A program made the position numbers and the translations under genes. 64,000 nucleotides of DNA from Siphonodentalium dalli. Its lineage: Eukaryota > Mollusca > Scaphopoda > Gadilida > Siphonodentaliidae. Shown in pieces: positions 14,770 to 63,435 of the stretch. Location of the stretch: positions 15,236,450-15,300,449 of the forward strand of contig CP136069.1 in the NCBI GenBank assembly GCA_032622095.1, read 5' to 3'. The notes beneath the pieces are model-generated. The model made no database searches, was not told the origin of the DNA, and saw nothing but the letters and a program-made list of their open reading frames with translations. The stretch's first letter is position 1; the number at the start of each line of letters is the position of its first letter.

Positions 14770-14873
14770 CAGTAATGCCCTAATTAATCGACTCCTTTAA
14801 CCACAGCAGAATTATGGGTGACTTTTCAGGAATTAGTCGGAAATATGGCTTGTTGCCATTCATTGGAAAGCTC
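14770..14873. repeat. Family A MITE, left half only (A1)
   Basis: CAGTAATGCCCTAATTAATC through GGAAAGCTC, the complete left arm of family A, stopping at the hairpin centre and joined directly to a CCGCGG-rich block. Confidence 0.8.
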
Positions 14874-15066
14874 ATACCGCCACTACACCGCGGTCATGCG
14901 GTAGTACACCGCGGTCATGCAGTAGCACACCGCCCATTCGCGGTAACGCGCGGTATCTGACCGTGGTCGTGTTGAAGTCCACCGCGGTAATCTAGTCCGT
15001 TACCGGCGTACACCGCGGTAGTATTTTCCGCGACCGCCTTACACCGCGGTCATACCTCGTGTCAAC
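14874..15066. repeat. ACCGCGGT-rich block
   Basis: About 190 bp of reiterated ACACCGCGGTCATGC / GTAGTACACCGCGG in both orientations. It replaces the right arm of A1 and resembles the interior of family F (GACCGCGGTGATACC). Confidence 0.7.
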
Positions 15067-15625
15067 CGCGATCGAATAATCTGCCGATAAGAATAATTTT
15101 CGCTGTTTTTTTATTATTTTTTTAAGACTCAAGGCTGTGTTTATAATTTGCGTTAATATATTAAGAAACTTACATTCATTCCTCGCGTGAAACTAAATTT
15201 ATTTTAGAGTACTAACGTCTTCAATGGTTGATGTACATATGTACCAGTAGTAGAAATGTAAACTTGAGAGATAATTGCAGGTTTTGCCTTTTTACACTAT
15301 AGCCCATCTTCAGACATTACTTGATTTCCTGTATCGCGATACACATGATACGATACAATAAGCATATCGTTTTAAAGTGTATCGCGATACATTGAATTCA
15401 TGATGAATCGTTGCAGCCCTATATAATCTTTAGTAATTTCTTGGTAGACATGCACTTCAAGGTCAAATATTTGCCTCAACTTGGCCTTAGGCTAATATTG
15501 TGACCCAGTACACTTGTTATTTTATGAGTGCTTACAATACACTTTGCTTTAATTTGCAGGAACAATTTTGTTTCGATAACCATGATGCATCAAAAGAAGT
15601 CAGGGCAAGATATTACACTATAATA
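15067..15625. other. Non-coding with hAT-type MITE terminus
   Basis: TATCGCGATACA direct and inverted repeats at 15333-15395 lead to GAATCGTTGCAGCCCTA (15408-15423), the reverse complement of a TAGGGCTGCAACGATTC-type hAT terminus. The left end was not found. No gene. Confidence 0.45.
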
Positions 15626-15770
15626 CAGTAATTCCCAAAGTAATTGACCACTTAACCACAGCAGAATTATGGGTAATTTTTCAGGATTTAGTCGGAAATA
15701 TGGCTTGTTGCCATTCATCAGAAAGCTCTCGCCGATGTGGTTAAGTGGTCAATTACTTTGGGCATTACTG
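15626..15770. repeat. Family A MITE, right arm truncated (A2)
   Basis: CAGTAATTCCCAAAGTAATT through the left arm, then a short right terminus GTCAATTACTTTGGGCATTACTG followed by TA. Its terminus is intermediate between families A and F. Confidence 0.8.
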
Positions 15771-15914
15771 TAGTACCAGTACATGTTAAAGATGCATAAT
15801 TCAAATTAATTAATGCTCGCAAATTACTATTTCTTTGGCTTTGGGGGTAAAAATATGTTATTCAAGTCGAGGAACCCACCCATCAAAGCTCAGAGTGATC
15901 AAATATCAATTTTT

Positions 15915-16665
15915 TAAATCTATTATTTTTCACCACCGGTACTTTTTAGTGGCCTGGTAAAAAGTAAAGAGAAGAGGGTCTCGGACCAAATTGCGGATGA
16001 AGATGGATAACTCTAAATTCAAGTGGCTTTTGTGTGTCAGATATTTAACAAACAGGCAAACTTTTGTTGTACAAAATGTTGATAAATAACAGGTTTTGGG
16101 TAAATTTATACTGTAGTTGACTGTGATTAGCATTATTTTTGGGCAATTAATCGATTTTGATAACTGAAGCGGCATGCATTTCAATAAATGTTGTTGTTGC
16201 TGGAATCTGATGATATGGTTAGAAGGAACTAAATGTTTACGAATTTCACGAAATCGTAAATTTCGTGAAGCCCAACCCTTCGCGCATCTTTTGCCATGTA
16301 TGAGTACTGTCCGAACCACACTTTTTTCAACTTTCCAACACACGTTTTCCACACTATACCCCACTTTTTGCACAAAATTTGAACTGCATGCTGATGAAAG
16401 TAAATACCCAGCCTTATTCTCCCGTCAATTTTTGGACACAAACGCATTTCAGACTAGGGAAAACACACATTTATACATGCCATAGGTATTATATTTTTTT
16501 TAATTTGTAAATACATGTATAATTGAAATATTATACGCCAATCGCATGCCAGAATTTTTTAACTCGTATTCGAGATACCCTGTAAAAACGAAAGGGACGT
16601 AATTCTACTTATTTAGTTCCTTCTAACCATATGATGGGGAACAACAAATCGATTGAGTACCGGGG
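15915..16665. mobile_element. Family Q element Q3, left-truncated, with a nested insertion
   Basis: Matches Q1 (AGTGGCCTGGTAAAAAGT, GCGGATGAAGATGGATAACT, GTTGGAATCTGATGATAT) and ends near CGATTGAGTACC. Interrupted by the element at 16216-16629. Confidence 0.65.
16216..16629. mobile_element. 414-bp inverted-repeat element nested in Q3
   Basis: Ends TGGTTAGAAGGAACTAAATG and TATTTAGTTCCTTCTAACCA with TA on both sides (16214-16215, 16630-16631). Comparison with Q1 (GATGATATGGAGACC) gives the uninterrupted site. An internal hairpin AATTTCACGAAATCGTAAAT / TTTCGTGAA is present. No transposase. Confidence 0.7.
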
Positions 16666-16739
16666 CCTTTATCTTTCCTCAAACCTATGTTTGTACCTGT
16701 TGATTGCTTTAGCAATGAATCCATTTGTTTGAATATGTA

Positions 16740-16945
16740 CTGTAATGCCCAAAGTATATAACCCCTTAACCACAGCAGAACTATGGGAAATTTTTTAGTC
16801 GGAAATATGGCTTGTTGCCATTCATCGGAAAGCTCTCACCGAGAACTTTCCAATGAATGGTAACAAGCCATATTTCCGACTAAATCCTGAAAAATTTCCC
16901 ATAATTCTGCTGTGGTTTAGGGGTTGATTATTTAGGACATTACTG
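16740..16945. repeat. Family A foldback MITE (A3)
   Basis: Full two-arm hairpin: TAATGCCCAAAGTATATAAC ... ACCACAGCAGAACTATGGG ... GGAAATATGGCTTGTTGCC, then the complementary arm ending GGACATTACTG. Confidence 0.85.
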
Positions 16946-16976
16946 TAACTTCATGTCTGGAAAATTTAGTTCTTAA

Positions 16977-17186
16977 CCCTTTCAGTGCCAAGTCCGATTT
17001 TTGTATCAACCCTGATATTTCCTTGATCATTTTTCAAATTTATTGATTATAACAATGTGATGCATTGATGGAAAGAGCTCTTAGAGCTCTTTCCATCAAT
17101 GTATCACATTATTATAATAAATAAATTTGAAAAAATGATCAAGGAAATATGGGTTGATACAAAAATCGGACTTGGCACTGAAAGGG
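16977..17186. mobile_element. piggyBac-like MITE P2b, near-perfect palindrome
   Basis: CCCTTTCAGTGCCAAGTCCG ... CGGACTTGGCACTGAAAGGG, TTAA at 16973-16976 and 17187-17190. The 210 bp fold back almost completely around AGCTCTTAGAGCT. Confidence 0.9.
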
Positions 17187-17190
17187 TTAA

Positions 17191-17624: not shown

Positions 17625-17639
17625 TGTGCATGGCTTCAT

Positions 17640-17955: not shown

Positions 17956-17962
17956 CAGACTT

Positions 17963-18035
17963 GCTTTTATTTGACAAAATTTGAAGTAAATCTTGGGGCC
18001 TCCAAGATTTACTTCAAATTTTGTCAAATAAAAAA
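17963..18035. repeat. 73-bp near-perfect hairpin
   Basis: TTTTATTTGACAAAATTTGA pairs with TCAAATTTTGTCAAATAAAA; the arms run on through AGTAAATCTTGG / CCAAGATTTACT around a short GGCCT centre. Confidence 0.88.
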
Positions 18036-18508
18036 TGGAGGATCCTCATTTTGAAGTCAATCTCTTTAGAAAATTGCTAAATTTTAGACTAAAAATAAGG
18101 AATAATTGGCAACATTTGGCATTGGGAAAGGTGCGCGTATTTAGTCCATAGTGCAACCAAGGATACTAGTAATCCATGCAACCAAGGATAATCCATATTT
18201 GCTGTTCTTATGGCAGCACACTTCATTTTTAGTTTCCATTATTCAAGCCAGAGTCCAAGTTAGAATCTTGACCCAAATTGGCGATCAGCTTGGGAGTAAT
18301 GAAATCTTTGAGTGGGAATTTCAAAGTAGAAACTTCATCTGAATCGTCCAATAAGAAACCTTCTACAGAATTTGTGGTCAAATTTGATTATCAACACCAG
18401 AGGCCACAATGCAAAATGTTTAGCAAAGTCCATAACTCGATCTGGCAGGAAAATGTCAACAGAACTAGATTTATGCAAAGATGATTTCTTATGTATTGGA
18501 TGGTACTA
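18036..18508. other. Non-coding, no feature recognised
   Basis: Has a short direct repeat AGTGCAACCAAGGATA / ATGCAACCAAGGATA (18150-18190). No gene. Confidence 0.4.
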
Positions 18509-18719
18509 CAGTAATGCCCTAAGTAATCGACTCCTTAACCACAGCAGAATTATGGGTAACTTTTCAGGATTTAGTCGGAAATATGGCTTGCTGCCATTCA
18601 TCGGAAATCTCTGTGAGAGCTTTCCGATGAATGGCAGCAAGCCATATTTCCGACTAAATCCTGAAAAGTTATCCATAATTCTGCTGTGGTTAAGGAGTCG
18701 ATTAATTAGGGCATTACTG
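18509..18719. repeat. Family A foldback MITE (A4)
   Basis: Complete: CAGTAATGCCCTAAGTAATC ... GATTAATTAGGGCATTACTG, flanked by TA on both sides. The arms match almost fully. Confidence 0.9.
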
Positions 18720-18738
18720 TATACTGTATACAGGTATG

Positions 18739-20563: not shown

Positions 20564-20583
20564 TTAAATGCCCTGTGTGAAGA

Positions 20584-21256: not shown

Positions 21257-21522
21257 TATACCAGTGACTGGTATGTACAGTAATGCCTTACATAATTGAC
21301 TCCTTATCCACAGTAGAATTATGGGTAATTTTTCAGGATTTAGCTGGAAATACATGTATGGCATGTTGCCATTCATCGGAATGCTCTCACTGAGAGCTTT
21401 CCGATGAATGGCAACAAGCCATATTTCTGACTAAATCCTGAAAAATTAACCATAATTCTGCTGTGGTTATATAAAGAGTCAATTATTTAAGGCATTACTG
21501 TATACCAGTGACTGGTATGTAC
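21257..21522. repeat. Family A MITE (A5) between 21-bp flanking duplications
   Basis: The MITE proper is 21278-21500 (CAGTAATGCCTTACATAATT ... AAGGCATTACTG). On both sides lies TATACCAGTGACTGGTATG (left about 21258-21276, right 21501-21520), itself a palindrome. Confidence 0.85.
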
Positions 21523-22321: not shown

Positions 22322-22328
22322 TTACAAC

Positions 22329-23518: not shown

Positions 23519-23522
23519 TTAA

Positions 23523-24189: not shown

Positions 24190-24191
24190 TA

Positions 24192-24389
24192 CCGCTATTC
24201 TCAAAGTAATTGACCAGAAAAACAGGGTGATACCCCGGTCATGACCGCGGTGATACCGGTAATAAATGGTAGCGGTATCGAGACGGTCATGGAGGTGGAG
24301 TTACGGTATTGGGCGATAATGATACCGCAGTCTTTTAGCGGGCACCGCATTAATTTTGTTGAATACCGCGGTGATTTTCATGGAACTCT
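24192..24389. repeat. Family F MITE, right end missing (F1)
   Basis: CCGCTATTCTCAAAGTAATT then the ACCGCGGTGATACCGG-rich interior, identical in order to the complete F2 (52794-53137) up to CATGGAACTCT, where similarity stops. Confidence 0.8.
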
Positions 24390-28170: not shown

Positions 28171-28173
28171 GCC

Positions 28174-28352: not shown

Positions 28353-28379
28353 TAAGCACTACATGTACTTGTATGTGTA

Positions 28380-28545
28380 CAGTAATGCTCTAAGTAATCG
28401 ACTTCTTAACCACAGCAGAATTATGGGTAACTTTTCAGGATTTCATCGGAAAGCTCTCGGGGAGTCATATTTCCGGCTAAATCTTGAAAAGTTATCCATA
28501 ATTCTGCTGTGTTTAAGGAGTCTGATTACTTAGGGCATATTGCTG
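28380..28545. repeat. Family A MITE, internally deleted (A6)
   Basis: CAGTAATGCTCTAAGTAATC ... ACTTAGGGCATATTGCTG; the GGAAATATGGCTTG part of one arm is missing. Confidence 0.8.
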
Positions 28546-28870
28546 TAGATACAAGTGCTTCATTGGGCTTCCTTTTTTTTTAAATGGCATGGGTACTAAT
28601 GTGTTTTCATTGACAGGCCTGTTATAGTATGAATATACCGGTACCTGTACATATAAAATTTATATCTATAATAACTAATATGTAACAAAATATAAAAACT
28701 AGTATCATTGGTCGCGTTAGGTGCACATGACCAGACGCCCAGGAATTTTTGTTTGCTCTTCATCATTTACTAGTAGTTGATTGCCTGACCCACTTTGATC
28801 TGAAACCAACCAACCTGATCATCTACAATATGCCAATACGCCCATCGACATACATGTACATGTATATGTA
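28546..28870. other. Non-coding, no feature recognised
   Basis: ACATGTACATGTATATGTA at its end precedes A7. No gene. Confidence 0.4.
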
Positions 28871-29076
28871 CAGTAATGCTCTAATCAATCGACCCCTTAA
28901 CCATAGCAGAATTATGGGTACCTTTTCAGGATTTAGTCGGCTTGTTGCCATTCATCGGAAAGCTCTCGGTGAGAGCTTTCCGATGAATAGCAACAAGCAA
29001 TTTTTCCGACTAAATCCTGGAAAGTTACCTATAATTCTGCTCTGGTTAAGAAGTTGATTACTTAGGGCATTACTGT
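28871..29076. repeat. Family A foldback MITE (A7)
   Basis: CAGTAATGCTCTAATCAATC ... GATTACTTAGGGCATTACTG with TA on both sides. Confidence 0.88.
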
Positions 29077-29201
29077 ACATGCAGGGACATCCCTGAAAGG
29101 AAGCCCTTTCACTGAGCTTAGAGCTGTATCCTTGCCCCATGCTCATATTTATACATCGGAATCTATTACAGAAAACACTAGTGAATTACATGTACATTGT
29201 A

Positions 29202-30313: not shown

Positions 30314-30947
30314 TACTGGTATATTGTCTTTGCAACTCGGTTGGCACAGAATTACTCTATGTTTAGCACCCTCGTGATGGAAAACTCTGAATATATGCAC
30401 CTTCAGGTCTCAAGTCATTTCGGCAGCTAAAAATTAGCAGTGCATAATTTGATCACACCCAAAAATACGGGTCAAAATTATCCACAAGTGTGAGACTCGG
30501 AATAATTTGGAATCGCGTTTCCCGTGGTAACCTAATTACCTAACATGGAGACTGGCAGTCAGAGGTTGTTGACGATCCCAAGAGAATCATGAACTTTAAT
30601 ACCACATCGCGGCTGACGCATTCAAATTTGTAAAAGCGTAATTTTTTAAAGGCCAGATCTGATTAAACATGACATTCGTTAAACATTGTAACAAACTAAT
30701 GAATTATTTCTTTTAGAATTTAAATGAACCAATTTGTTAGAATTTCATGAATATTCCCAGAGCAACAAGACGAAGTCGAGAATCTTTTTGTAGTATTCCC
30801 AAAGCTGTATGAGTGATTGGATCTAAGGTATTTGGTATTCTGTTCGGTTTGATATCGCAGAATATAAGATGAGGTTGAAGTCGATAACCATCGTATAAAG
30901 ATGAAACAGTCTTTACACTATCCATCCCTATAAAATTCTTACTTCTA
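30314..30947. other. Non-coding, unique-looking
   Basis: A minus-strand frame at 30925-30737 has ordinary amino-acid composition but no splice borders or known domain. No repeat recognised. Confidence 0.4.
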
Positions 30948-31168
30948 CAGTAATGCCCTAAATAATCGACTCCTTAAGACCTTAACCACAACATAATTAT
31001 GGGTAACTTTTCAGGATTTAGTCGAAAATATGGCTTGCTGCCATTCATCGGAAATCTCTCAGTGAGAGCTTTCCGATGAATGGCAATAACCCATATTTCC
31101 GACTAAATCCTGAAAAGTTACCAATAATTCTGCTGTGGTTAAGGAGTCGATTATTTAGGGCATTACTG
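30948..31168. repeat. Family A foldback MITE (A11)
   Basis: CAGTAATGCCCTAAATAATC ... GATTATTTAGGGCATTACTG; TA on the left, GA on the right. Confidence 0.88.
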
Positions 31169-31203
31169 GACAACCTCTCAATAGCACAGAATGTTTATTT
31201 ACT

Positions 31204-33360: not shown

Positions 33361-34573
33361 AGGGACCAGCCTAGAGGGCGACTTGGGAGACAGGGACCAT
33401 TCTAGAGGGTGACTTGGGAGACAGGGACCATTCTAGAGGGTGACTTGGGAGACAGGGACCATTCTAGAGGGTGACTTGGGAGACAGGGTCCATTCTAGAG
33501 GGCTACTTGGGAGACAGGGACCATTCTAGAGGGTGACTTGGGAGACAGGGACCATTCTAGAGGGCTACTTGGGAGACAGGGACCATCCTAGAGGGCGACT
33601 TGGGAGACAGGGACCATCCTAGAGGGTGACTTGGGAGACAGGGACCATTCTAGAGGGCTACTTGGGAGACGGGGACCATCCTAGAGGGCGACTTGGGAGA
33701 CAGGGTCCATCCTAGAGGGTGACTTGGGAGACAGGGAACATCCTAGAGGGACTGACTTGGGAGACAGGGACCATCCTAGAGGGCGACTTGGGAGACAGGG
33801 ACCATCCTAGAGGGTTACTTGGGAGACAGGGACCATCCTAGAGGGTGACTTGGGAGACAGGGACCAGCCTAGAGGGCGACTTGGGAGACAGGGACCATCC
33901 TAGATGGCGACTTGGGAGACAGGGACCATCCTAGAGGGCTACTTGGGAGACGGGGACCATCCTATAGGGCGACTTGGGAGACAGGGACCATCCTAGAGGG
34001 TGACTTGGGAGACAGGGACCATCCTAGCGGGCAACTTGGGAGACAGGGACCAGCCTAGAGGGCTACTTGGGAGACGGGGACCATCCTATAGGGCGACTTG
34101 GGAGACAGGGACCATCCTAGAGGGTGACTTGGGAGACAGGGACCATTCTAGAGGGCTACTTGGGAGACGGGGACCATCCTAGAGGGCGACTTGGGAGACA
34201 GGGTCCATCCTAGAGGGTGACTTGGGAGACAGGGAACATCCTAGAGGGACTGACTTGGGAGACAGGGACCATCCTAGAGGGCGACTTGGGAGACAGGGAC
34301 CATCCTAGAGGGTTACTTGGGAGACAGGAACCATCCTATAGGGTGACTTGGGAGACAGGGACCAGCCTAGAGGGCGACTTGGGAGACAGGGACCATCCTA
34401 GATGGCGACTTGGGAGACAGGGACCATCCTAGAGGGCTACTTGGGAGACGGGGACCATCCTATAGGGTGACTTGGGAGACAGGGACCATCCTAGAGGGTG
34501 ACTTGGGAGACAGGGACCATCCTAGCGGGCAACTTGGGAGACAGGGACCAGCCTAGAGGGCGACTTGGGAGAC
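33361..34573 (+). repeat. 31-bp minisatellite, about 39 units, with higher-order repeat
   Basis: Unit GACTTGGGAGACAGGGACCA + TCCTAGAGGGT. Variants (ATTCTAG, CAGCCTAG, CTATAGGG, GGCTACTTGG, GACGGGG) recur in the same order 498 bp apart (from 33643 and 34141), so a 16-unit block was duplicated as a whole; both blocks share the odd unit with GGGACTGACTTGG. Open frames through it exist only because three units total 93 bp. Confidence 0.95.
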
Positions 34574-34843
34574 ATATTCTCCTTAAACTGTTCCACTTCT
34601 CCCTATTTTTGTCTGAGGGAGAAGTGACTTCTCTCTCATATACATGTACATGTACCAGTATGGATATGTCCTAACTGCATACTTGAAGTATATTTACTGA
34701 TTATAATGGTGTTCTTACTCGCTATAATGGGTTTATAAATGGGCGCTTGTGTTGCATAATACTTATTGGATCATAGAATGCTGATGTTGGTGTGTAAACT
34801 AAACCTCAGCCATTATGGCTTCTCCCTGATAACAGTCCACGTA
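34574..34843. other. Non-coding spacer between minisatellite and A12
   Basis: Phrases AGGGAGAAGTGACTTCTCTC and, beyond A12, AGGGAGAAGTGACCTCCC suggest A12 inserted into a short local duplication. No gene. Confidence 0.4.
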
Positions 34844-35058
34844 CAGTAATGCCCTACATAATCGACTCCTTTAACCACAGCAGAATTATGGGTAACTTTT
34901 CAGGATTTAGTCGGAAATATGGCTTGTTGCCATTCATCGTAAAGCTCTCGGGGAGAGCTTTCCAATGAATGGCAACAAGCCATATTTCCGACTAAATCCT
35001 GAAAAGTTACCCATAATTCTGCTGTGGTTAAAGGAGTCGATTCATTAGGGCATTACTG
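34844..35058. repeat. Family A foldback MITE (A12)
   Basis: CAGTAATGCCCTACATAATC ... GATTCATTAGGGCATTACTG with TA flanks; one of the cleanest full-length copies. Confidence 0.9.
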
Positions 35059-35144
35059 TACTTCTCTCTAATAAGCAAATAGGGAGAAGTGACCTCCCAA
35101 TTTGAAACTTCTTGGCTGGTCGCTGCAATAATGAATTGTTAAAC

Positions 35145-42648: not shown

Positions 42649-42745
42649 ATGTAAATCAACTACGGGATTGTACCAATATTTTATTGTGAATCAGAAATTC
42701 TGAGAAAAAAGTATGCAAATATCCATCTTTATGTACAGGTATGTA

Positions 42746-42935
42746 CAGTAATGCCCTAAATAATCAACTCCTTAACCACAGCAGAATTATGGGTAACTTT
42801 TCATAATTTAGTCGGAAATATGGCTTGCTGCCATTCATAGGAAAGCTCTCAGTGAGAACTTTCCGATGAATGGCAACAAATTCACCCTCTGGGGACCTCA
42901 TTCTGCAAATGACAGGCACACTAAACTCAGGCTTG
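42746..42935. repeat. A/B chimeric MITE (A14 joined to B9)
   Basis: Family A from CAGTAATGCCCTAAATAATC through TTCCGATGAATGGCAACAAA, switching at about 42880 to the B right arm (TTCACCCTCTGGGGACCTCA ... ACTCAGGCTTG). The duplicate position in S2' (51457-51671) has an intact A copy. Confidence 0.85.
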
Positions 42936-42987: not shown

Positions 42988-43395
42988 CCCTTTACCCTCA
43001 AACCGGCCAAAAACACCCAAAATAAAGCTTCAACAGCCTAAGATATCTTTGGTCTGTCTCAATACAATTAACACCATACAAATATGGATATCATTGGAAC
43101 CGGTTCGTTGACCACATTTTGATGGTTACAGTTATGCCCTGTGCCAATGCATTCTCTTATATATGCGAGTCGACCATAGGTCGCCTCGCATATATAAGAG
43201 AATGCATTGGCCTAAAAATTATAATATTTTCTTACATTTTTTAACAATTTTATAATTTTTTCTACATTCTTTGACAATTTTATCATTTTTAATATGTTAA
43301 GCCAATGCATTCTCTTATATATGCGAGGCGACCTATGGTCGACTTGCATATATAAGAGAATGCATTGGCACAAGGCCGTTCTGTTGGGTAAAGGG
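42988..43395. mobile_element. piggyBac-like MITE P1b, with empty-site twin
   Basis: CCCTTTACCCTCAAACCGGC ... TCTGTTGGGTAAAGGG between TTAA copies (42984-42987, 43396-43399). The unfilled twin at 37268-37271 has one TTAA with identical flanks. 408 bp; two GCATTCTCTTATATA hairpins. Confidence 0.95.
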
Positions 43396-46981: not shown

Positions 46982-47340
46982 CCCTTTACCCAACAAACCG
47001 GCCAAATAAAGCTTCAACCTAAAATATCTTCGGTCTGTCTCAATAGAACCATACAAATATGGATATCATTGGAACCGGCTCCTTGACCACATTGTGATAG
47101 TTACAGTTATGCCCTGTGCCAATGCATTCTCTTATATATGCGAGTCGACCATAGGTCGCCTCGCATATATAAGAGAATGCATTGGCCTAAAAAAACTCTT
47201 TTTTTACCATTTTTTCTTACATTCTTTAACAATTTTATAATTTTTAATGTGTTAAGCCAATGCATTCTCTTATATATGCGAGGCGACCTATGGTCGACTC
47301 GCATATATAAGAGAATGCATTGGCACAGGGCCGTTCTGTT
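46982..47340. mobile_element. piggyBac-like MITE P1c, right terminus replaced
   Basis: CCCTTTACCCAACAAACCGG at the left after TTAA (46978-46981), interior as in P1a and P1b, but after CCGTTCTGTT the expected GGGTAAAGGG is missing and TGTCCGCTTAA follows, which is also the left flank. Confidence 0.85.
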
Positions 47341-48475: not shown

Positions 48476-48542
48476 CATGGAATGGTAGTACATTGCACAT
48501 GTACATGTATGGTAGCACCAGCATGCAATGGTAGTACATGTA

Positions 48543-49926
48543 CTGTTATGCCCCAAGTAAATGGCCCATCTAACTGAAGTGGTACCCCAGTTTAACTGCG
48601 TTCCGTTTTAACCTAACCGCGGTTATAAGATGCGTTTAAAACGCAAGAGAACCGAATAAATTGTGCAGTTAAAACGGATACGTCGCGGTTAAACCAGTAT
48701 ATGTCGCTCTTAATGGAACAGATACCATATGGCGTATATGGCGTGTCATGTTTTAGTTGCCATGCTCGTTAGACAAGTTAGCACAAATAACATGGCAGTG
48801 TCCCTTTCAATATCAATATTTTTTGTTGTGGATCTTCTATTTATTTTGGATAAATAGAACAGACATTCATATACCAATATTTTATGTTTTGGGTAAACGG
48901 AAGATTGTGATGTATGGTGTGAAAAAATTAAAGTGTTTTTGTGTGTTTTATTTATTTTTGGATTTCTTTTTATACCGTAATAATGTTGTATACTTTATAG
49001 TAGCCTTTTGGGCTAACCCCGACGGGTAATCGGAATTCTTACGTCCCATTTTCGACTTTAACCATCGATAAAATAAATATTTATATAATTATATATAAAT
49101 ATAATTATTCGACAATTTAGCTGATGAGTGCCGGTCACTTTCAATGTAAGGAAACGCGTTTAAAATGGAACAACCGCAAAACAGAAAAAACGCATTCATA
49201 CGGATCAAATGGCCACTGAATTTCGGATTCGAGTGGATAATTATATAATAATATAAAGTGGGGGTTAGAGTCCCACACATGCATCATAAATGTAAAGTGA
49301 GGGAAACAAAAATGCATTTAAACGGAACAACCGCACTCTTCAAACGTCGGGCATTATTCGGATATCGGAAACCGATATTTAAGTTTTCCGATCTTGCATT
49401 TGTTGCTATATAATCATAGTTAACTACAAACGTGACACGCCAGCTAGATTCGTGAATTGTGTATGTACTATTACTAGTATTAAATTCAGCACTCTACTTT
49501 GCTTCAAACATATAAGCATGTATTTTTTCTCAAGCCGAACAACGGACGTATACTAGAACATATACAATGTACGTCAAAATTATACAGTTTTCAACAAGTC
49601 GGGATTAAAACATAAAGTATATCGTGTTGAGTACCGTTGGTGATAACAAAAACATACAATCAACTCCTGGTCGATTATGAAGTTACCACTTTGCCGGGAT
49701 CGCTAAAACACAAAACGATAACATACACTGGTAGATGCATGGGTAGTACCCCTCTCTTTCCAATTAAATATTCAAATACGTGCGGTGTAACCGCAGTTAA
49801 GGGTTATTAACTGCGGTAACCTAACCGCATGTAACTGCGATGCCACCGCAGTTATGGCAAATAACTGCGGTTACGGTTTAACCGCAGTTGTAAACGGATT
49901 ATAACTGCAGTTAATGGGTCATTTAC
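48543..49926. mobile_element. Family E element E1, right terminus missing
   Basis: CTGTTATGCCCCAAGTAAAT after TA (48541-48542). Ends TTAATGGGTCATTTAC without the final TTAGGGCATAACAG. It split the 39-bp minisatellite. Both ends are packed with AACTGCGGTTA / TAACCGCAGTTA motifs; the middle is AT-rich with no transposase. Confidence 0.85.
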
Positions 49927-50290
49927 ATATGTATGGTAGCACTAGCATGGAATGGTAGTACATGTACATGTATGGTAGCACCAGCATGCAATGGTAGTAC
50001 ATGTATGGTAGCACCAGCATGCAATGGTAGTACATGTACATGTATGGTAGCACCAGCATGCAATGGTAGTGGCATGGAATGGTAGTACATGTACATGTAT
50101 GGTAGCACCAGCATGGAATGGTAGTACATGTACCGGTACATGTATGGTAGCACCAGCATGCAATGGTAGTACATGTATGGTAGCACCAGCATGCAATGGT
50201 TACATGTACATGTACACATGTACATGTATGGTAGCACCAGCAAGCAATGGTAGTACATGTACAATGTACATGTATGGTAACACCAGCATG
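49927..50290 (+). repeat. 39-bp minisatellite
   Basis: About nine or ten units of GGTAGCACCAGCATGCAATG + GTAGTACATGTACATGTAT with variable ACATGTA spacers; more units lie left of E1 (48480-48540). Confidence 0.92.
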
Positions 50291-51456
50291 CAATAGTAGT
50301 AACATCAATAGTGTATTGTGAGCGTGATCTTGTATAGCATCATGCATTCAGCGGAATATATTCAGCCTGAATCCTTCGAGACACGATGGCATTAAAACCA
50401 TTGAGCATTGCAGACTATTTGTGAGCTTTTCATTGCGTTCAAAGCATTGAGAACCCCAGACAGGATGTGAGCTTTACATTGCATGAAATTATTCATTTAA
50501 TGATTCGTCCTTTGATAACCAACGGACTGGAAGATTTCATCTTTATTTTAAACAAAGAGAACAAAAAAAAAAATTCACAGTGCATTTGTCCAAACATCGA
50601 CGTATATTATAGATCGATGGTCCAAACAGTACAGCCAGACTTGAAAAAAGAGTCCCGAAATTAGTTGTGGCATGAACTCGTTGAACTAGAGAAAGAGTTA
50701 TTAGTCTACAAAACCAAAGCAGCCAACCAAATAAAGCAGGAAATTGATGAAATTCTCCCAGATGGATGATACACTGTAATGAAGTAGCGAGTCCGTGGTA
50801 TGATAAACAAACCTGAAGTATCAATGTGTAAGTACTAATTATCATTGTCTGGACCCTGGTATCAGAATCAAGCAGACTAAATTCAATCATGTCAATTACC
50901 CGGGGCAGCTATTGTAGGGACGTTTGAATCACAAATGATGACTGTCAAAAATGTTCCGGTGTGCTACAATTAACATCTCCCCCCTGTCCCTGGTGCCCCC
51001 CCACCACCTAAACTTTTTTTAACTCAGGATTTAATGGCCAGTTACTCTAATTTTATCACTGAATATGACTATGCAACTGCATGTAAGAAAAATTATCATT
51101 GGTGACAATGAAGCATGTTTTTTCTGTGAAAGAGGCAATAATTAAAGTGACAAGGAAGAATCTTTTTTCTTCGAGATAAACTACAAATAGGTAATTTTCA
51201 ATGAAAATTCTCTGAACTTTAATTAGTGCCTCTTTCACAGAAAATGCATGTTTCATTGTCACCAATGATAGTTTTTCTTAGTCGCATACATGTACATGTA
51301 ATCATATTGAATCAAAAACTAATTATGAATGAATGTAAATCAAGTAACTGCTCGTCATATGATTTTTGAAAGAGGGGGATGATATTGTACATGTACCAAT
51401 ATTTTATTGTGAAATATCAGAAATTCTGAAAAATATTACGCAAATATACATCTATA

Positions 51457-51671
51457 CAGCAATGCCCTAAATAATCGACTCCTTAACCACAGCAGAATTA
51501 TGGGTAACTTTTCAGGATTTAGTCGGAAATATGGCTTGCTGCCATTCATCGGCAAGCTCTCACTGAGAGCTTTCCGATGAATGGCAACAAGCTATATTTC
51601 TGACTAAATCCTGAAAAGTTACCCTGATATTTCTGCTGTGGTTAAGGAGTTGATTATTTAGGGAATTACTG
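51457..51671. repeat. Family A foldback MITE (A16)
   Basis: CAGCAATGCCCTAAATAATC ... GATTATTTAGGGAATTACTG with TA flanks. Present at the equivalent place (42746) in the first duplicate, so it predates the duplication. Confidence 0.88.
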
Positions 51672-52383
51672 TATGTAGTCCTTCAGAGTAATTTGCGGCA
51701 TGTACATCTACAGTATCTGAACTTCTGAAGACTGTGTTACAAATCGCCCTGGCAGCTTTATTGCGCATTCCAATACAGAGTATTGTTCTAAATTGATTGA
51801 AGTAGACTCAGCGGTGATGATAACTAGATTAGTAAGATTTCTTTATAGCAGCGCGTGTCAAAACATAAGTGTGAGGATGCCAATCAATAGGATTTATTCT
51901 GACAATAAGTGCAGGCAGTTCATAGATTCACATACGGTAGATAGTTCACACATCAGGGTCAATACCATATACATGTACACTGTACATGTATGTGACCCGT
52001 CATATCAAAACTAGTCGTAAGTCAAAAAATATTGTATTTGAGTTACGTGCTGCATGTTATAGAGTGTGATAAGATTTTTACATAGGTCGCAAAGTTGCGG
52101 TCCAAAGTTATAGGATTTTGAATGTCAGCATAAACCGATTCCAGAGATAATCAGAGATAATCGCATTTAAGGACAAACAAATTAGCTAATTCTTAATAAA
52201 TATACACCACTATATGTCCAAATTACAAAAGCACATTAATAGACACAAACTTCACTTTATGCTACTTTATGTCGACAGAGTAGAACTATATACAAATGTG
52301 TCCAAAATGTTTTTTTATATTTTATGCATTTACTCAGTATTAGAAATCCCGACTTATGACTGGTTTTGATATGGCGGGTCACA
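51672..52383. other. Non-coding
   Basis: TATATGTGACCCGTCATATCAAAACTAGTCGTAAGTC at 51978 has a partial inverted counterpart GACTTATGACTGGTTTTGATATGGCGGGTCACATA at about 52350-52385, so 51978-52385 may be another foldback element of about 410 bp. Confidence 0.55.
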
Positions 52384-52793
52384 TACTGTTATGCCCTAAG
52401 TAAATGACCCATTAACTGCAGTTATAATCTGTTTACAACTGCGGTTAAACCGTAACCGCACCGCTGTTATTAGCCGTAACTGCGGTGGCATCGCAGTTAC
52501 ATGCGGTTAGGTTACCGCAGTTAATAACCCTTAACTGCGGTTACACTGCACGTAAACGTTAACCTTCCGGTATTTGAATATTTAATGGGAAAGAGAGGGG
52601 TACTACCCATGCATCTACCAGTGAATGTTATCGTTTTGTGTTTTAGCGATCACGGCAAAGTGGTAACTTCATAATCGACCAGGAGTTGATTGTATGTTTT
52701 TGTTATCACCATCGGTACTCAACACGATATATTTTATGTTTTAATCCCGACTTGTTGAAAACTTTATAATTTTGACGTATATGCTCTAGTATA

Positions 52794-53137
52794 CCGCTAT
52801 TCTCAAAGTAATTGACCAGAAAAACGGGGTGATACCCCGGTCATGACCGCGGTGATACCGGTAATAAACGGTAGCGGTATCGAGACGGTCATGGCGGTGG
52901 AGTTACGGTATTGGGTGATAATGATACTGTGGTCTTTTAGCGGGCACCGCATTAATTTTGTTGAATACCGCAGTAATTTTCATGGAACTCTTTGAGGGGA
53001 GGTATTTACTCACACATACTTGTTCGCGTTAACAAGCGGTATCAGTACTGCGGTATTGGAGGATACCGCGGTATAGTACCGCCATATTAACGGGGTGACA
53101 CCACGTTATTGGTGGTCAATTACTTTAAGTATAGCGG
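52794..53137. mobile_element. Family F MITE, complete (F2), nested in E2
   Basis: CCGCTATTCTCAAAGTAATT ... AATTACTTTAAGTATAGCGG, TA at 52792-52793 and 53138-53139. The same position in E1 (about 49548, GGACGTATACTAG) is uninterrupted. 344 bp with GACCGCGGTGATACCGG and GGTATTGGAGGATACCGCGG motifs. Confidence 0.92.
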
Positions 53138-54113
53138 TACGTCCGTTGTTCGGCTTGAGAAAAAATACATGCTTATGTTTGAAGCAAAGTAGAGTGCCGA
53201 ATTTAGCTGGCGTGTCATGTTTGTAGTTAATTATGATTATATAGCAACGAATGCAAGATCGGAAAACTTAAATATCGGTTTCCGATATCCGAATAATGCC
53301 CGACATTTGAAGAGTGCGGTTGTTCGGTTTAAAACGCATTTTTCTTTCCCTCACTTTACATTTATGATGCATGTGTGGGACTCTAACCCCCACTTTATAT
53401 TTTTATATAATTATCCACTCGAATCCGTTTGAAATTCAGTGGCCATTTGATCCGTTTGATTGCGTTTTTCCGTTTTGCGGTTGTTCCATTTTAAACGCGT
53501 TTCCATACATTGAAAGTGTGCGGCACTCATCAGCTAAATTGTCGAATAATTATATTTATATATAATTATATAAATATTTATTTTATCGATGGTTAAAGTT
53601 GAAAATGGGCCGTAAGAATTCTGATTACCCGTCGGGGTTAGCCCAACTGTTATTTTCACCAAAAGGCTACTATAAAGTATACAACATTATAATAAAAAGA
53701 AATCGAAAAATAAATAAAACACACAAAAACACTTTTATTTTTTCACACCATACATCACAATCTTCCGTTTACCCAAAACATAAAATATTGGTATATGAAT
53801 GTCTGTTCTATTTATCCAAAATAAATAGAAGATCCACAACAAAAAATATTGATATTGAAAGTGACACTGCCATGTTATGTGTTCTAACTTGTCTAACGAG
53901 CATGGCAACTAAAACATGACACGCCATTAAAATATACGCCATATGGTATCTGTTCCATTAAGAGCGACATACCGGTATACCGGTTTAACCACGACGTATC
54001 CATTTTAACTGCACAATTTATTCGGTTCTCTTGCGTTTTAAATGCATCTTATAAGTTATAACCTCGGTTAGGTTAAAACGGAATGCAGTTAAACTGGGGT
54101 GCCACTTCAGTTA

Positions 54114-56490
54114 CTGTTATGCCCTAAGTAAATGGCCCATCTAACTGAAGTGGCACCCCAGTTTAACTGCGTTCCGTTTTAACCTAACCGCGGTTATAAG
54201 ATGCGTTTAAAACGCAAGAGAACCGAATAAATTGTGCGGTTAAAATGGATACGTCGTGGTTAAACCGGTATATGTCGCTCTTAATAGGGGTGCCACGATT
54301 AATCGTATAATCGATGAACCGTTGATAAAGCCGATAATCGATTACCATTTCCATAGTCGATTAATCTACGTTATTTATTTCGGACGTCGGAAAATGTTGG
54401 ATATTATTGAATACTAGTACTTTGTTTGTTTTACACAGTTTTATCTACAACTGAAGGGTTAACAACCTTTGATCGCAGATCAAAGAGATTCCGACATGAG
54501 TACTACTAACTTAATATGTTGCAAACAGTCGGCAGTTCAATTGGTGATGTGACATGGCTACTCTTCGGGTCGTTGTATATTCTACAAAGCTTTGAACTTA
54601 TGGCGATGTCGTTGTATATCTATACTTGAAAGGCGGCACTATATCTTTGAAATATTCCGACTGGTACCGTGTTCAATGAAATGAACGCCACTAGCCTTGA
54701 ATCTGATTGGACCAATGGTGAGTTGTTTGACATTCTCTGGAAACCACGGAACCTACAGCATTTTAATCATCGATGTTCTCCGCGATGTCATTTGCGACTA
54801 TACTTTGTTTGCATTGTTATAATAAGATGATACTAGCACAGGCTATCACATATCATGCGGTGAATGCTGAATGAAACTCGCTATTATCAAAATGTTTAAT
54901 TTGTTGTAAGTCCTACAATTTGCAGGTGGGGACACATCTTTGTGATTGTTATCCACGCTCTGGATGTTTGATGAAATCGTTTCCCTTTTTTAGGAACCGC
55001 CGGCCATCCGTTGTGCATTCCTACTTTCAATACATTGTGTTCATTGGTCATTAACAGTGGTTTTTGATGCACTTATTAATGTAAACATTTCATCAGCCGA
55101 TGCCTCAAACAACCAGCGACAGTGCAGTTAACCAGCACCCAGCCATTAGGCCATATTACAGAATACTCCTACCGGTACTGATGTCATTAGGTACGATTAA
55201 TCGATTATAGTCGATTATTGACGACCGATTATCGATTATCAAAATCAATAATCGTGGCACCTCTAGCTCTTAATGGAACAGATACCATATGGCGTATATG
55301 GCATGTCATGTTTTAGTTGCCATGCTCGTTAGACAAGTTAGCACACATAACATGGCAGTGTCCCTATCAATATCAATATTTTTTGTTGTGGATCTTCTAT
55401 TTATTTTGGATAAATAGAACAGACATTCATATACCAATATTTTATGTTATGGGTCAACGGAAGATTGTGATGTATGGTGTGAAAAAATAAAAGTGTTTTT
55501 GTGTGTTTTATTTATTTTTCGATTTCTTTTTATTATAATGTTGTATACTTTATAGTAGCCTTTTGGTGAAAATAACAGTTGGGCTAACCCCGACGGGTAA
55601 TCAGAATTCTTACGGCCCATTTTCAACTTTAACCATCGATAAAATAAATATTTATATAATAAATATAATTATTCGACAATTTAGCTGACGAGTGCCGCTC
55701 ACTTTCAATGTAAGGAAACGCGTTTAAAATGGAACAACCGCAAAACGGAAAAAACGCATTCAAACGGATCAAATGGCCACTGAATTTCAAATGGATTCGA
55801 GTGGATAATTATATAAAAATATAAAGTGGGGGTTAGAGTCCCACACATGCATCATAAATGTAAAGTGAGGGAAAGAAAAATGCGTTTAAACCGAACAACC
55901 GCACTCTTCAAATGTCGGGCATTATTCGGATATCGGAAACCATTTAAGTTTTCCGATCTTGCATTCGTTGCTATATAATCATAATTAACTACAAACATGA
56001 CACGCCAGCTAAATTCAGCACTCTACTTTGCTTCAAACATAAGCATGTATTTTTTCTCAAGCCGAACAACGGACGTACATTTGTATACTAGAGCATATAC
56101 GTCAAATTATACAGTTTTCAACAAGTCGGGATTAAAACATAAAATATATCGTGTTGAGTACCGATGGTGATAACAAAAACATACAATCAACTCCTGGTCG
56201 ATTATGAAGTTACCACTTTGCCGTGATCGCTAAAACACAAAACGATAACATACACTGGTAGATGCATGGGTAGTACCCCTCTCTTTCCCATTAAATATTC
56301 AAATACCGGAAGGTTAACGTTTACGTGCAGTGTAACCGCAGTTAAGGGTTATTAACTGCGGTAACCTAACCGCATGTAACTGCGATGCCACCGCAGTTAC
56401 GGCAAATAACAGCGGTGCGGTTACGGTTTAACCGCAGTTGTAAACGGATTATAACTGCAGTTAATGGGTCATTTACTTAGGGCATAACAG
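54114..56490. mobile_element. Family E element E3 (inner), interrupted by a hAT MITE
   Basis: CTGTTATGCCCTAAGTAAAT ... ACTTAGGGCATAACAG. It sits in E2 in opposite orientation, so E2 and E3 form a palindrome with ~1.38-kb arms. Subtracting the hAT MITE leaves about 1.39 kb. Open frames are short and without domains. Confidence 0.92.
54285..55264. mobile_element. Non-autonomous hAT element, 980 bp
   Basis: Ends TAGGGGTGCCACGATTA and TAATCGTGGCACCTCTA-type (one mismatch), flanked by GCTCTTAA on both sides (54277-54284, 55265-55272), an exact 8-bp target duplication; the uninterrupted site TCGCTCTTAATGGAAC is in E1 at 48706-48720. AATCGATTA-type repeats occur in both subterminal regions. No ORF. 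Confidence 0.92.
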
Positions 56491-56522
56491 TAGATGGGCC
56501 ATTTACTTAGGGCATAACAGTA

Positions 56523-57180
56523 TACGGTACATGTACAATATATAAACATGTATTTATCATAAGGCCAAAAAATATATATTCCTGTGTTTCTGGTGACATG
56601 CAAGAAAAAATTAAGGGTGGGCTGGTGGCTTTTCATTTTATTTTATTATTTCATTTTATTTTCAATTTTGCTCAAAATAAATATGATTATCCCCCCCCCC
56701 CACATCCCGGGACTTCTTCTCCTTGATTGTAATGTACATGTACTATGAAATAATAAAACTAAATACATGTACTAGTACATGTACTAGTACATAATATTAG
56801 AACATACATGTAATGTAATTTATTGTTTTATTGAATAAAACATGAAAAAATTAATTTAATTCAGCTGTGACCTACTAGTAATTGAAGTGTGGTATACCAT
56901 TTACTCAGTACTTATCAATGAGTATTTACTATAGGAAGGGTTAATTTATCATGAATCTGTGGAAAACGAATATTGACTGACGAGGAGTGTCTATGACCAT
57001 ATAGCCTATGGTCTACATATGCTCTGAATAATACAATAGACTACAGTGTACAATGTACCGGTAGCTGAGGTGACAGTTGCTTTTAGGCTAGCCATGCAGA
57101 CAGTCATACAATATGGCTAATATTGATTCCTTATGGACCGAATCTAATAATCTTCTCCCTGAGGAAGCAGTTCTCATATA
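56523..57180. other. Non-coding
   Basis: Poly-C at 56692, palindromic ACATGTACTAGTACATGTACTAGTACAT-type run at 56766-56790. No gene. Confidence 0.45.
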
Positions 57181-57393
57181 CAGTAATGTTCTAAGTAATC
57201 GACTCTTTAACCACAGCAGAATTATGGGTAACTTTTCAGGATTTTGTCGGAAATATGGCTTGTTGCCATTCATCGGAAAGCTCTCCCCGAGAGCTTTCCG
57301 ATGAATGGCAACAAGCCATATTTCCGACAAAATCCTGAAAAGTTACCCATAATTCTGCTGTGGTTAAGAAGTCGATTACTTAGAGCATTACTG
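57181..57393. repeat. Family A foldback MITE (A17)
   Basis: CAGTAATGTTCTAAGTAATC ... GATTACTTAGAGCATTACTG; arms almost perfectly complementary. Confidence 0.9.
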
Positions 57394-57399
57394 GACTCG

Positions 57400-60300: not shown

Positions 60301-62167
60301 TAGACAAACATGTTGTTAATCACCATGTTCATGTGGCATTTCTATCCAATGACAACCTTGAAATGCCAGTTAATCAAGCTAAATGGTTGATACCTTTACG
60401 CCTACGGGTCAGATCCAGCCGTGACGCACATTGTGTCTACATATCATTGATGAAATTCACTAAATGTGTAGAAGATATAGGTGCGTCTATATATGTACTA
60501 GAATGTTTCTATCCACATGTATATACCCACAATCGCATGACACGGAATTGTCACATAAAGTGTGAAGGGTATACAATGTACGTGCGAATTTTCATTTTTC
60601 CTCTTGATATTGAAGAAAATAATTTTACTTTGAAACTCCCCAGCTCCGATAACCAACTTGCCCACCAATTAAATAAACCCCAGATTATTCGCTTTTCCCT
60701 CCTGTCCTTTTCACTTTCGCCAGCACTGGAAAACCTATTATAGCCTGATGCTTCCGGACTACCACCGATGCCCATATATTTGATGTTCCGAATAGTCGTT
60801 ATAAGTAGAAATGTTGACACTGTGTTTTCAAATAATCCAGATTTGTAGCAATTTAATTTCTTTTTAATTAATTCCCAGATAGTCCCTCGTAATAAGTGGA
60901 CATCGTGTTGGATCCTGCAGTAGATACTGCTTAGTTGGAACATTTCGGGCTGAACTGATTGTGGTAGTAGATTATTGGCAACATGTTTAATAGGTCTGTC
61001 ATCGTTAGCTCACAACCGAAGTGTTGTTTCGGCTTTCCTCTGAGCAGAACTTAAATTTCGACAATTTTCGGTGGCCATTTTGGTAGCCATCTTAGCATTT
61101 TGAATCGTGATTGGCTACTCATACCCACAAAAAACATTGATTTCAATCAATGATGTGTATTGGTGCCGAATTGGCGTTTTGTCGAATGGGTTTTCGTGAA
61201 TAACTACATATTTGCCATTTTCATTATTATTGGCGACCATGTTGGACGCCATCTTGAATTCTGTATTTTCCCCAAAGCGGATTTTAGCAGATTTTGGATA
61301 TGTTATACACGAGATTCTCCCGCGTCGAATGACAACAAAACCGTTTCTTTACCAATTTCTTCTGGGTCTAACCCTCTGACGACCATTCTAAATATCTGCC
61401 ATTTTCCATATTTTGACCGCCATTTTGGCAGCCATTTTAAGACAAAGCGTCAATTTGGGTTTCATTGAATTGGAGTAATTATAGATAATGGTATGCCCAA
61501 CTTACATTGTACAGTTCTGTCCATTTCTTGTTGATATATGACTGGAATCCCAATGGCGATTTTTGTGGAATTTTATACCGCGTTCTGTAAAATCAAATTT
61601 TTGAGGGTGTATATGAGACTGGGACCCCATTTATGGTATCTTTCATTGCTCCGATGATGAATATGACTAATCAATGTCGCCAGTCTGAACCATTATCAAA
61701 CAACAGGAATTGATCTTTAAGATATTAGGCAAAAATTTCAAATTTTCGAGTTTAGGCCACCATTTTGGCAGCCATCTGGGGCGAGGGGTTCAATTTTTTC
61801 TATAGATATGTGGCATAATACTTTACCTTCGCAAAAATGTATACATTTGTATTAATATGGCAACATTTGTTCTCATTATGTCGAATTAATCTCAGTCAGA
61901 ATCTCTTTTGACTAAAGGCGGCCATGTTGGACGCCATCTTGGATCCTGGATTTTGCCCAAAGCGGATTTTAGCGGATTTTGGATATGTTGTAGCAGAGAT
62001 TCTCCCGCGTTGAATGACACCGAGATCGCTTGTATACCAATTTCTTCTGGGTTGACCCCTTTTTTTGCGTACTACGACCACACTAATGCGGGATAGGGGC
62101 ACTACATGTACATTCACCCTCTCAGGACCTCATTCTGCAAATGACAGACACACTAAATCCAGACTTG
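57400..62167. mobile_element. Family B long composite MITE (B10) interrupted by element K
   Basis: Left part 57400-57787 (CAAGTCTGAATTTAGTGTGT, long B interior) and right part 62086-62167 (GCGGGATAG ... GACACACTAAATCCAGACTTG). Confidence 0.85.
57788..62085. mobile_element. Element K: 4.3-kb long-inverted-repeat element
   Basis: Termini TAGTGTGGTCGTC and ACGACCACACTA, flanked by ATG on both sides (57785-57787, 62086-62088). Long subterminal arms of roughly 700 bp follow (GAAGAAATTGGTATA, GATTCTCCCGCG and its complement, ATCCGCTAAAATCCGCTTTG); part of the right arm is present twice (61230-61490 and 61730-62060). The arms and interior repeat AAAATGGCGGCC / GGCCATTTTGGCAGCCATTT. The middle (58500-61230) has frames up to 136 codons (60333-60743) with no recognisable transposase. 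Superfamily unknown; a 3-bp target would fit Harbinger or CACTA types, but the ends match neither well. Confidence 0.75.
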
Positions 62168-62254
62168 TATACTCGCCGCTCCCAATTGATTGTATCATGC
62201 TGGATCGGTTCTGATCATCCACCATCTCATTTAATGTTCTTACCTTATTAATAG

Positions 62255-62341
62255 TTAAAGTGCCTAATCAGTTCAGATTTACCCCTAATCCTGGTAGACT
62301 GCCCTGTTAGCACATGCACATGTAAACCCAGAATATCAAGA
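62255..62341 (+). repeat. Direct repeat flanking A18, copy 1
   Basis: TTAAAGTGCCTAATCAGTTC ... CAGAATATCAAGAAG. The same ~90 bp recurs at 62622-62714 (CAGAATACCAAGAAG). Confidence 0.88.
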
Positions 62342-62546
62342 AGTAATGCCCTAATTAATCGACTCTTTAACATGTGACAGCAGAATTATATAGGTAACTT
62401 TTCAGGATTTAGTCGGAAATATGGCTTGTTGCCATTCATCGGAAAGCTTTCCGGTGAATGGCAACAAGCCATATGTCCGACTAAATCCTGAAAAGTTACC
62501 CATAATTCTGCTGTGGTTAAGGGGTCGATTACTTAGGGCATTACTG
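62342..62546. repeat. Family A foldback MITE (A18)
   Basis: AGTAATGCCCTAATTAATCG ... GATTACTTAGGGCATTACTG; TA on the right. Confidence 0.87.
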
Positions 62547-62621
62547 TATATCAGAGAAGTGTTTTGACCCGCGAAGCCAAAGAAATTGTAATTTGCGAGC
62601 GTTAATTTGGATAATGCATCT

Positions 62622-62714
62622 TTAAAGTGCCTAATCAGTTCAGATTGACCCCTAATCCTGGTAGACTGCCCTAGCTATTAGCACATGTTCATGCAAACTC
62701 AGAATACCAAGAAG
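62622..62714 (+). repeat. Direct repeat, copy 2, followed by element H
   Basis: Matches 62255-62341; the position that holds A18 there is followed here by element H. The preceding bases (GCCAAAGAAATTGTAATTTGCGAGCG) are an inverted copy of about 15815-15845. Confidence 0.85.
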
Positions 62715-62716
62715 TA

Positions 62717-63435
62717 CTGCTCTAATTAATCGACCAGGTATTGCCGTGGTACATATACATGTACATGTACTCAACCACGTTCATGCGATCAACCGCAACC
62801 AATTATACTGATGCCAACCACGGTAAATTCGGTAACACCTCCCAATCCCAGTTATACAGTATTCTTTATGCAATGTTTATAAGATTTAAAAAAAAATTTA
62901 AGTCGGCATTGTAACCATGCAGTGTTTATTTCTGGCGTGGTGTCAGCTGCATTGTTGATGCAGTTGCAATGACGGTCGGTGACCAACTTTGTACGTTGAA
63001 TAAACCATAAAAGATTTCTCAACTGAAACAAATTGTACCGGTATATGAAGTATGTTTAGTTAACGGTAACTTGAAAATAAATATACTCCTGATGGTGTAG
63101 ATATCGTATTAGTGAATTAAAAACTTGGCGATTGAAAATGGCGCAGGTCAAGCGCCGACGTGTTTAATAATTTCTAGACTGAATTTGCTGTTATTGCGGT
63201 CGCAAAAAAAAATGGGGCAGTTATTTATTTGGTTATCGCAGTTCAAATCTATTACCGCTGTAAGACTACCGATGGTTAATACATGACAACAGCTAGCATT
63301 TCGTGGTGATACAATGCACCACTTGACTGTGGTTGACTGAAGGTTGACTGGAGATACATGTATAATGTACCGCATGACTACAACCATTACCGGCCTACAA
63401 CTGCGTTAAAGGGGTCAATTAATAGATCATACTAG
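62717..63435. mobile_element. Element H, A/E/F-type ends with a GTGGTTGA-rich interior
   Basis: Left CTGCTCTAATTAATCGACCA after TA; right GGGGTCAATTAATAGATCAT + ACTAG before TA (63436-63437). Both end zones repeat AACCACG / CCGTGGT / GTGGTTGACTG. The interior is AT-rich and non-coding. Ends are diverged, so the limits are tentative. Confidence 0.5.

Follow-up and report, generated by a model that had tools for sequence, protein, structure and literature searches.

The subject of this analysis is a terminal motif common to several families of mobile elements in a 64,000-nucleotide stretch of the genome of the scaphopod Siphonodentalium dalli (contig CP136069.1, C9:15236450–15300449; hereafter the window), followed through the scanned genome of 2.23 Gb in nine contigs. 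The families, labeled A, E, F, and H, are non-coding and have one recognition sequence in common at their ends, and their mobility through a long span of time is probably due to related enzymes. Two larger elements from elsewhere in the genome, J and L110, extend the comparison.

In the window, TACNGYWATKCYCWAAGTAA (at most three mismatches) occurs at 39 places, as compared with 0–1 in each of four Markov shuffles. A weight matrix of the family ends locates 42 places at 14 bits or more (0–1 in each of five shuffles); because the matrix includes ends from the window itself, this count is an inventory rather than a test, and the match at 12314 lacks TA and may be due to chance. Genome-wide, the 20-mer of the A end (up to two mismatches) yields 66,332 + 65,473 = 131,805 matches, and its reversed control 0 + 1. 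The E/F form (exact) yields 894 + 905 = 1,799, and the H form (up to one mismatch) 6,243 + 6,263 = 12,506, a count that may include mutated A ends; both reversed controls gave 0 + 0.

Consensus ends were built from the 30 A ends of the window and from fetched ends (10 E-left, 5 E-right, 7 F-left, 2 F-right, and 4 H), with distinct sequences only as rows; the F-left set took in variant tips picked on purpose (L068–L073), so that its consensus begins TACTGC. Over positions 3–28, the consensus ends of different families are identical at 15–21 of 26 positions in 13 pairs, a match that letter shuffles equaled in none of 50,000 trials for nine pairs and in 1, 8, 42, and 65 trials for the other four. 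Twelve other TA-flanked inverted-repeat tips, which in this genome lie next to transposase genes, agree with the group at 7–13 of 26 positions (the pogo-type tip of L046, TAGGGAAGAGTC, was left out of these controls). The shared motif put forward in a preliminary description of the window is thus real and does not fall to chance level when consensus sequences are used. Among themselves, the control tips agree at 2–19 of 26 positions and 6 of 66 pairs reach at least 15, which indicates that shared tips are ordinary among related families of this genome.

The claim that all of these ends sit at TA applies to the starts of A, A2, E, and F that had been quoted. It fails for the left end of H (62710–62711) and for the A copy at 62339, both of which now read AG, as well as for the A ends at 31170 and 57395 (TC) and the degenerate tips at 28545 and 29400. 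The start of H had also been placed 5 bp off: genome copies end in TACAGYTATGCTCTAATTAATCG, which makes 62712, and not 62717, the first base after TA. In this corrected register, H matches the group better than first claimed.

Interiors and a second box

Terminal inverted repeats (TIRs) are present in A, E, F, and J. With its ∼212 bp, non-coding sequence, TIRs of ∼106 bp, and the end matches counted above, A is a miniature inverted-repeat transposable element (MITE), and so is F, which is small (348 bp), non-coding, and abundant (1,912 first-look candidates) and has TIRs of ∼48 bp at 84% identity. MITEs are usually under 500 bp, according to excerpts of PMC2872659. This size is exceeded by E (1.39 kb), H (0.64–0.73 kb), L110 (1.82 kb, with H-type ends), and J (2.62 kb, L083:130–2744, with inverted repeats at both ends), which are best called non-autonomous elements. 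The longest open frames of J and L110 are 93 and 87 amino acids, as judged by frame length rather than by a family scan.

Family E, first taken for a short MITE, is an element of ∼1.39 kb with TIRs of ∼40 bp (92.5%) and two slightly different ends, ...AAATGACCC and ...AAATGGCCC. The left end (...AAATGA) has 97 + 94 exact copies and the right end (...AAATGG) 87 + 101. Among the first 100 + 100 ends listed, 75 left–right pairs lie within 15 kb, next to one left–left and one right–right pair; they span 403–13,429 bp, 12 of them below 1,300 bp, 45 at 1,300–1,500 bp, and 18 longer. Five of these 18 (L080–L084, 2.6–5.4 kb), together with L059 (2.1 kb), were considered as autonomous elements and rejected, as each is an E with additional inserts. 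The open frames of L080–L084 reach at most 189 amino acids (again by length, not by a family scan), and the E copies read contain no long open frame.

The interiors had been described as wholly different, which is true of A. When interiors without tips were compared by the Smith–Waterman algorithm, 182 of 200 shuffles scored as well as A–E and 136 as well as A–H; A–F (28), E–F (36), and E–H (15) are weak pairs, and F–H is clearer (3), through ACCGCGGTRATACCGGT. The core word GCGGT does not occur in A. It occurs 12 times in E (2.2 in shuffles), 13 times in F (0.9), 7 and 10 times in two H copies (1.0 and 1.2), and 17 times in the array near position 14.9 kb of the window (1.4), with none of 300 shuffles as high in each case. 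The three supposedly different arrays therefore have one core word in common. J has 30 core sites, 28 of them no more than 240 bp from an end. The proposed division into several cargo types separates A from the rest; E, F, H, and J, with their common subterminal word, often at a fixed place, look like diverged relatives and not like unrelated cargo.

At element position 55–62, E, F, J, and some H copies carry a second box, ACYGCGGT. With the ends aligned on conserved AAGTAA/AATTAA columns and H represented by L075 and L079, six of eight tested E/F/H ends have at least seven of the eight bases at one register (40 bases in, corresponding to position 55 or, for a single H end, to 54), for a word that was chosen after the data had been seen. 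The remaining two are the right end of F, with six of eight bases at the register, and one H end with an exact copy one base off. Circular shifts of each end's own match profile never reached six in 20,000 trials (27 and 6 of 20,000 for two smaller subsets); with H anchored off the conserved columns, four of eight ends and 24 of 20,000 shifts were obtained. J and L110, met later, provide a small and partial independent check on the choice of word, with the box in three of four ends: both ends of J read ACCGCGGT (eight of eight at 55–62), the right end of L110 has seven of eight bases, and its left end has no box.

Within families, where some loci overlap and a few ends are therefore counted twice, ACTGCGGT stands in 18 of 23 E-left ends, ACTGCGTT in 15 of 18 E-right ends, and ACCGCGGT in 11 of 13 F-left ends; F-right ends read ATGGCGGT in 9 of 10 cases and ACCGCGGT in one. 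Identity between E, F, and H, for the same selected H copies with the end HR79 dropped and one H end shifted by a base, is 0.63–0.65 at positions 3–28, 0.41–0.47 at 29–54, 0.75–0.83 in the box, and 0.26–0.32 at 63–90. From this profile we infer that the box is probably under constraint; F and H may share ancestry, so the families in this comparison are not fully independent. A has no second box and, beyond the tip, little in common with the others.

Insertion sites, ages, and the search for a transposase

Comparison with unoccupied copies demonstrates a TA duplication in three nested insertions (F in E, E in E, and J in E), that is, for the families E, F, and J only. For F in E, CTAGTATACGTCC becomes CTAGTA-TA[F]TA-CGTCC. 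The site of this insertion is readable in 21 of 22 E copies, including E#1 and E#2 of the window: one holds F, 12 are empty, one is rearranged, three have the insert TA-CCGG-TA, and four have TA-CAAATG-TA. With tips of the form CCG...CGG and 3-nucleotide overhangs pairing through CG, excision of F would leave TA-CCGG-TA, and this insert is a likely candidate for its footprint. At the same target site (E position ∼402–422), TACAAATGTA is common to the four E copies L016–L019; the tips of F alone do not explain it.

A tree of E copies was computed from the E-alignable positions. The copies with TA-CCGG-TA group together in it (support 0.98), and the copy with F, the TA-CAAATG-TA copies, and one empty copy make up a second clade (0.995). 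As the two insert types fall into separate clades, either this TA served two or more times or one insert is no footprint.

The families differ in age. Among the best-scored copies (40 of 476 candidates scored for E, 40 of 1,912 for F, and 40 of 623 for H), those of F are 98–99% and those of E 97–99% identical, and long matches to the H element of the window are 69–78% identical, rough figures given that scoring of the best copies favors young ones. Distances from the consensus are 1.2–3.1% for 22 E copies and 2.8–9.5% for ten A copies. Use of the end thus extended over much time and points to a transposase lineage more than to a single enzyme. Intact H-type ends also recur at a regular spacing of 978–1,075 bp (C2:507537–508514, C2:1167361–1168338, C2:32737438–32738418, and others). 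These recurring perfect ends point to a younger family with H ends, so the H tip was still used later than the old H copies.

The search for a transposase covered 52 fetched loci, 24 with DDE_1 (from 150 listed matches, with 150 of 415 candidates scored) and 28 with DDE_3 (from 90 matches, with 150 of 191 candidates scored). The fetched stretches extend ∼0.8–1.5 kb beyond the domain and, in seven cases, ∼2 kb more on each side. Twenty-six of the 52 loci yielded inverted TA-flanked carrier ends, whose genuineness is a matter of judgment, and copy comparison added those of L051/L056; none of these is of the A/E/F/H kind. A full-length relative with the same ends and a DDE/D transposase, of the kind that the preliminary description proposed to look for, did not turn up in the 52 loci, about half of which showed carrier ends. 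The Transposase_1 profile gave no match, but was equally silent in control genomes and is no evidence of absence.

Several candidates were set aside. In L031, L034, and L055, complete A elements lie next to the gene; in L033, L035, and L108, a single A tip faces away from it. DDE_Tnp_4 (150 of 910 candidates scored, all of them matches) was left out of the fetched loci because the ISL2EU and Harbinger groups duplicate AT and TWA, respectively. A 16-bit end-like match near L051 lies within an unrelated insert of ∼580 bp (L051 versus L091), which has TTTAA flanks and the ends AGGGGTACTGTACGCCA and is, by its flanks, perhaps piggyBac-like.

L110 contains the decayed 5′ leader and start-codon region of a pogo-like gene in the same order (71.6% identity over 204 bp, E = 7e−22; 77% over 74 bp; 79% over 67 bp). 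The relatives of this gene, L043 and L045, match BrkDBD, HTH_Tnp_Tc5, and DDE_1 (BrkDBD of L045 just under the cut-off). The tip of the L043/L045 family was not found in L110. Protein comparison at the relic gave no significant match, as expected with ∼15 codons left.

Competing readings and known systems

We consider it probable that A, E, F, H, J, and L110 belong to the Tc1/mariner/pogo (ITm) superfamily as non-autonomous cut-and-paste elements that insert at TA, and that related transposases of a long-lived lineage moved them; whether this lineage is pogo-like is about an even call. Their organization, with one end specificity across many non-coding families, resembles that of Stowaway MITEs in plants. 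The first 28 bp would be the core transposase site, and ACYGCGGT at 55–62 of E, F, J, and some H ends, together with the internal repeats, would be an additional binding site, so that tip and box would both be bound. A would keep the terminal site only, with a palindromic interior instead. More tentatively, the bipartite end of E, F, H, and J (28-bp tip and palindromic box at 55–62, reiterated in the arrays) could be the platform on which a pogo-like transposase loads, with the tip fixed, arrays and interiors turned over, and elements from old H to young F kept mobile via one lineage, a possible but doubtful model.

Several observations weigh against a common lineage with a bipartite end. No transposase with A/E/F/H ends turned up in the fetched loci, and the relic in L110, the sole link to a transposase, could be a nested fragment. 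The box is missing from four further H ends that were kept out of the box test, namely both ends of the window H (L074) and a single end of L076 and of L077; in total, it stands in 6 of the 12 E/F/H ends looked at or, once J and L110 (each read from one copy) are included, in 9 of 16. The insert TA-CAAATG-TA does not match the ends of F, and the preference for young copies makes the ages approximate.

The preliminary description had suggested one Tc1/mariner-like transposase or an exchange of interiors. TA insertion, inverted repeats, and the possible excision footprint fit Tc1/mariner/pogo elements. That one currently active enzyme mobilizes A, E, F, and H is unlikely: ends up to 21 of 26 identical and the youth of both E and F speak for it, but the gap in identity between long H matches and the best F copies, the 11 of 26 bases at which F ends differ from A ends, and the failure to find such a transposase in the fetched loci speak against it. 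It is distinctly improbable that the ends became similar through exchange of interiors or ends, by recombination or chimera formation. One possible example exists at 14768–15140, where half of an A is joined to an L110-type array (junction 14871/14872), and A indeed has little beyond the tip in common with the others; yet this junction is known from one place, the place that was searched, and the common position of the box relative to the tip in E, F, J, and some H ends argues for common descent or common constraint. Since many Tc1/pogo elements start with CAGT, and several pogo families of this genome with TACAGT or TACCGT, unrelated elements might also have converged on similar tips. This is very improbable in view of the lower match of the 12 control families and of the box at one register in E, F, J, and some H ends.

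The elements illustrate, within a single genome, a large non-autonomous group that retained its end specificity through replacement of the interiors and that has a second end signal. Were the box a binding site, the arrays would be reiterated binding sites and not random satellites, which would explain the presence of repeat arrays inside such elements. The tip plus the box at 55 provides a search key for the missing transposase.

Shared ends as a general phenomenon are already known, and rice Stowaway is the closest precedent. According to excerpts of PMC3660474 on the Stowaway/Osmar system, 25 TA-inserting Stowaway families have short ends in common and are orphans, lacking cognate autonomous elements; mariner-like transposases mobilized them in yeast, and excision leaves end residues. 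Unlike these, several families here measure 0.6–2.6 kb and have subterminal box arrays, and the genome is that of an animal. The Stowaway end sequence differs from the A/E/F/H end. By literature text searches, the tip appears to be new, as do the second box and the members of 0.6–2.6 kb with arrays, although the families may stand in Repbase or Dfam; a text search with six 11-mers of the ends listed matches on subjects that are unrelated by title.

Similarity to pogo-like elements lies in the TA duplication and in tips that start with CAGT or CCGT (PMC7325037, in part; L043–L045) and in the decayed gene start of L110, whereas no pogo-type end recovered here equals the A/E/F/H end. Sleeping Beauty, in the sections of PMC7827188 used, likewise has two separate transposase-binding sites per end and footprints from 3-nucleotide overhangs (both putative here), but its sites are direct repeats in TIRs of ∼220 bp, whereas here the box differs from the tip and lies at 55 bp and in arrays. 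Coral CMITEs, in the same excerpts of PMC2872659, are MITE families with a common module; there, the interior is conserved, the TIRs vary, and piggyBac is the link, whereas here the ends are conserved.

Oyster Cg_HINE is also non-autonomous with tandem repeats and varying modules, but is classed as a Helentron with central satellite-like repeats (PMC7492417, in excerpt), whereas the present elements have TIRs, TA duplications, and subterminal arrays. These TIRs and duplications, together with the core sites of J near its ends, rule out a Helentron/HINE assignment. We know of no TIR–TA structure in Helentron or HINE elements. An assignment to ISL2EU (PHIS), which has an AT target duplication and tips that are usually GG (PMC4482050), is ruled out by the TA duplication and CNG tips found here.

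Features of the window

The copies of the families and related features of the window are compiled in Table 1. At the junction 14871/14872, the half A hairpin meets the L110-type array at the hairpin tip, possibly as an end-swapped chimera. At 42744–42907, another half A runs into a different repeat (the ATTCACCCTCTGGGGACCTCATTCTGC family), and A palindromes may lose one arm repeatedly.

Table 1. Elements, fragments, and boxes located in the window
Feature	Position	Strand	Remarks
Family A, full-length hairpin element, example	18507..18721	+	Arms ∼106 bp
A2, shortened A copy	15624..15772	+	149 bp
Family A copy	16738..16947	+	
Family A copy	21276..21502	+	
Family A copy	28869..29077	+	
Family A copy	30946..31170	+	
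Family A copy	34842..35060	+	
Family A copy	51455..51673	+	
Family A copy	57179..57395	+	
Family A copy	62339..62548	+	Left TA decayed
Left half of A	14768..14871	+	Broken at hairpin tip, joined to L110-type array
Subterminal box array related to L110	14872..15140	-	88% (14941–15012), 77% (15058–15140)
H, old element	62710..63437	+	Decayed ends; no second box at either end
E#1	52384..56522	+	Holds nested F and nested E#2; last 30 bp = 56493–56522
F	52792..53139	+	348 bp with both TA copies, within E#1
E#2	54112..56492	-	Nested at TA in right end of E#1; further insert ∼54286–55265
E#2 site equivalent to F site of E#1	56071..56091	-	8-bp insert (TACAAATGTA), possible excision footprint
E#3	48541..49929	-	90% identical to E reference; left tip missing beside CATGTA repeat
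E-like tip only	12926..12967	+	42 bp, 90%
F fragment	24190..24389	+	First 200 bp, 95.5%
F	63957..64000	+	Cut by window end
Second box (ACTGCGGT), E left end	52438..52445	+	Element position 55–62
Second box (ACCGCGGT), F left end	52846..52853	+	Element position 55–62

Matches to EGF-like and laminin G-like domains at 12234–12833 and 1605–1904 (both on the minus strand) are probable exons of animal genes. An open frame of 703 amino acids at 2257–4365 (plus strand) matches zf-BED, DUF659 (below cut-off), and the hAT dimerization domain and is possibly an intact hAT transposase. At 33361–34574, a 31-bp unit is repeated in tandem in 39 copies, and a palindromic repeat (GCCAATGCATTCTCTTATATATGCGAG...) has 11 copies in the window, for example at 8764–8848, 43127–43211, and 47102–47186.

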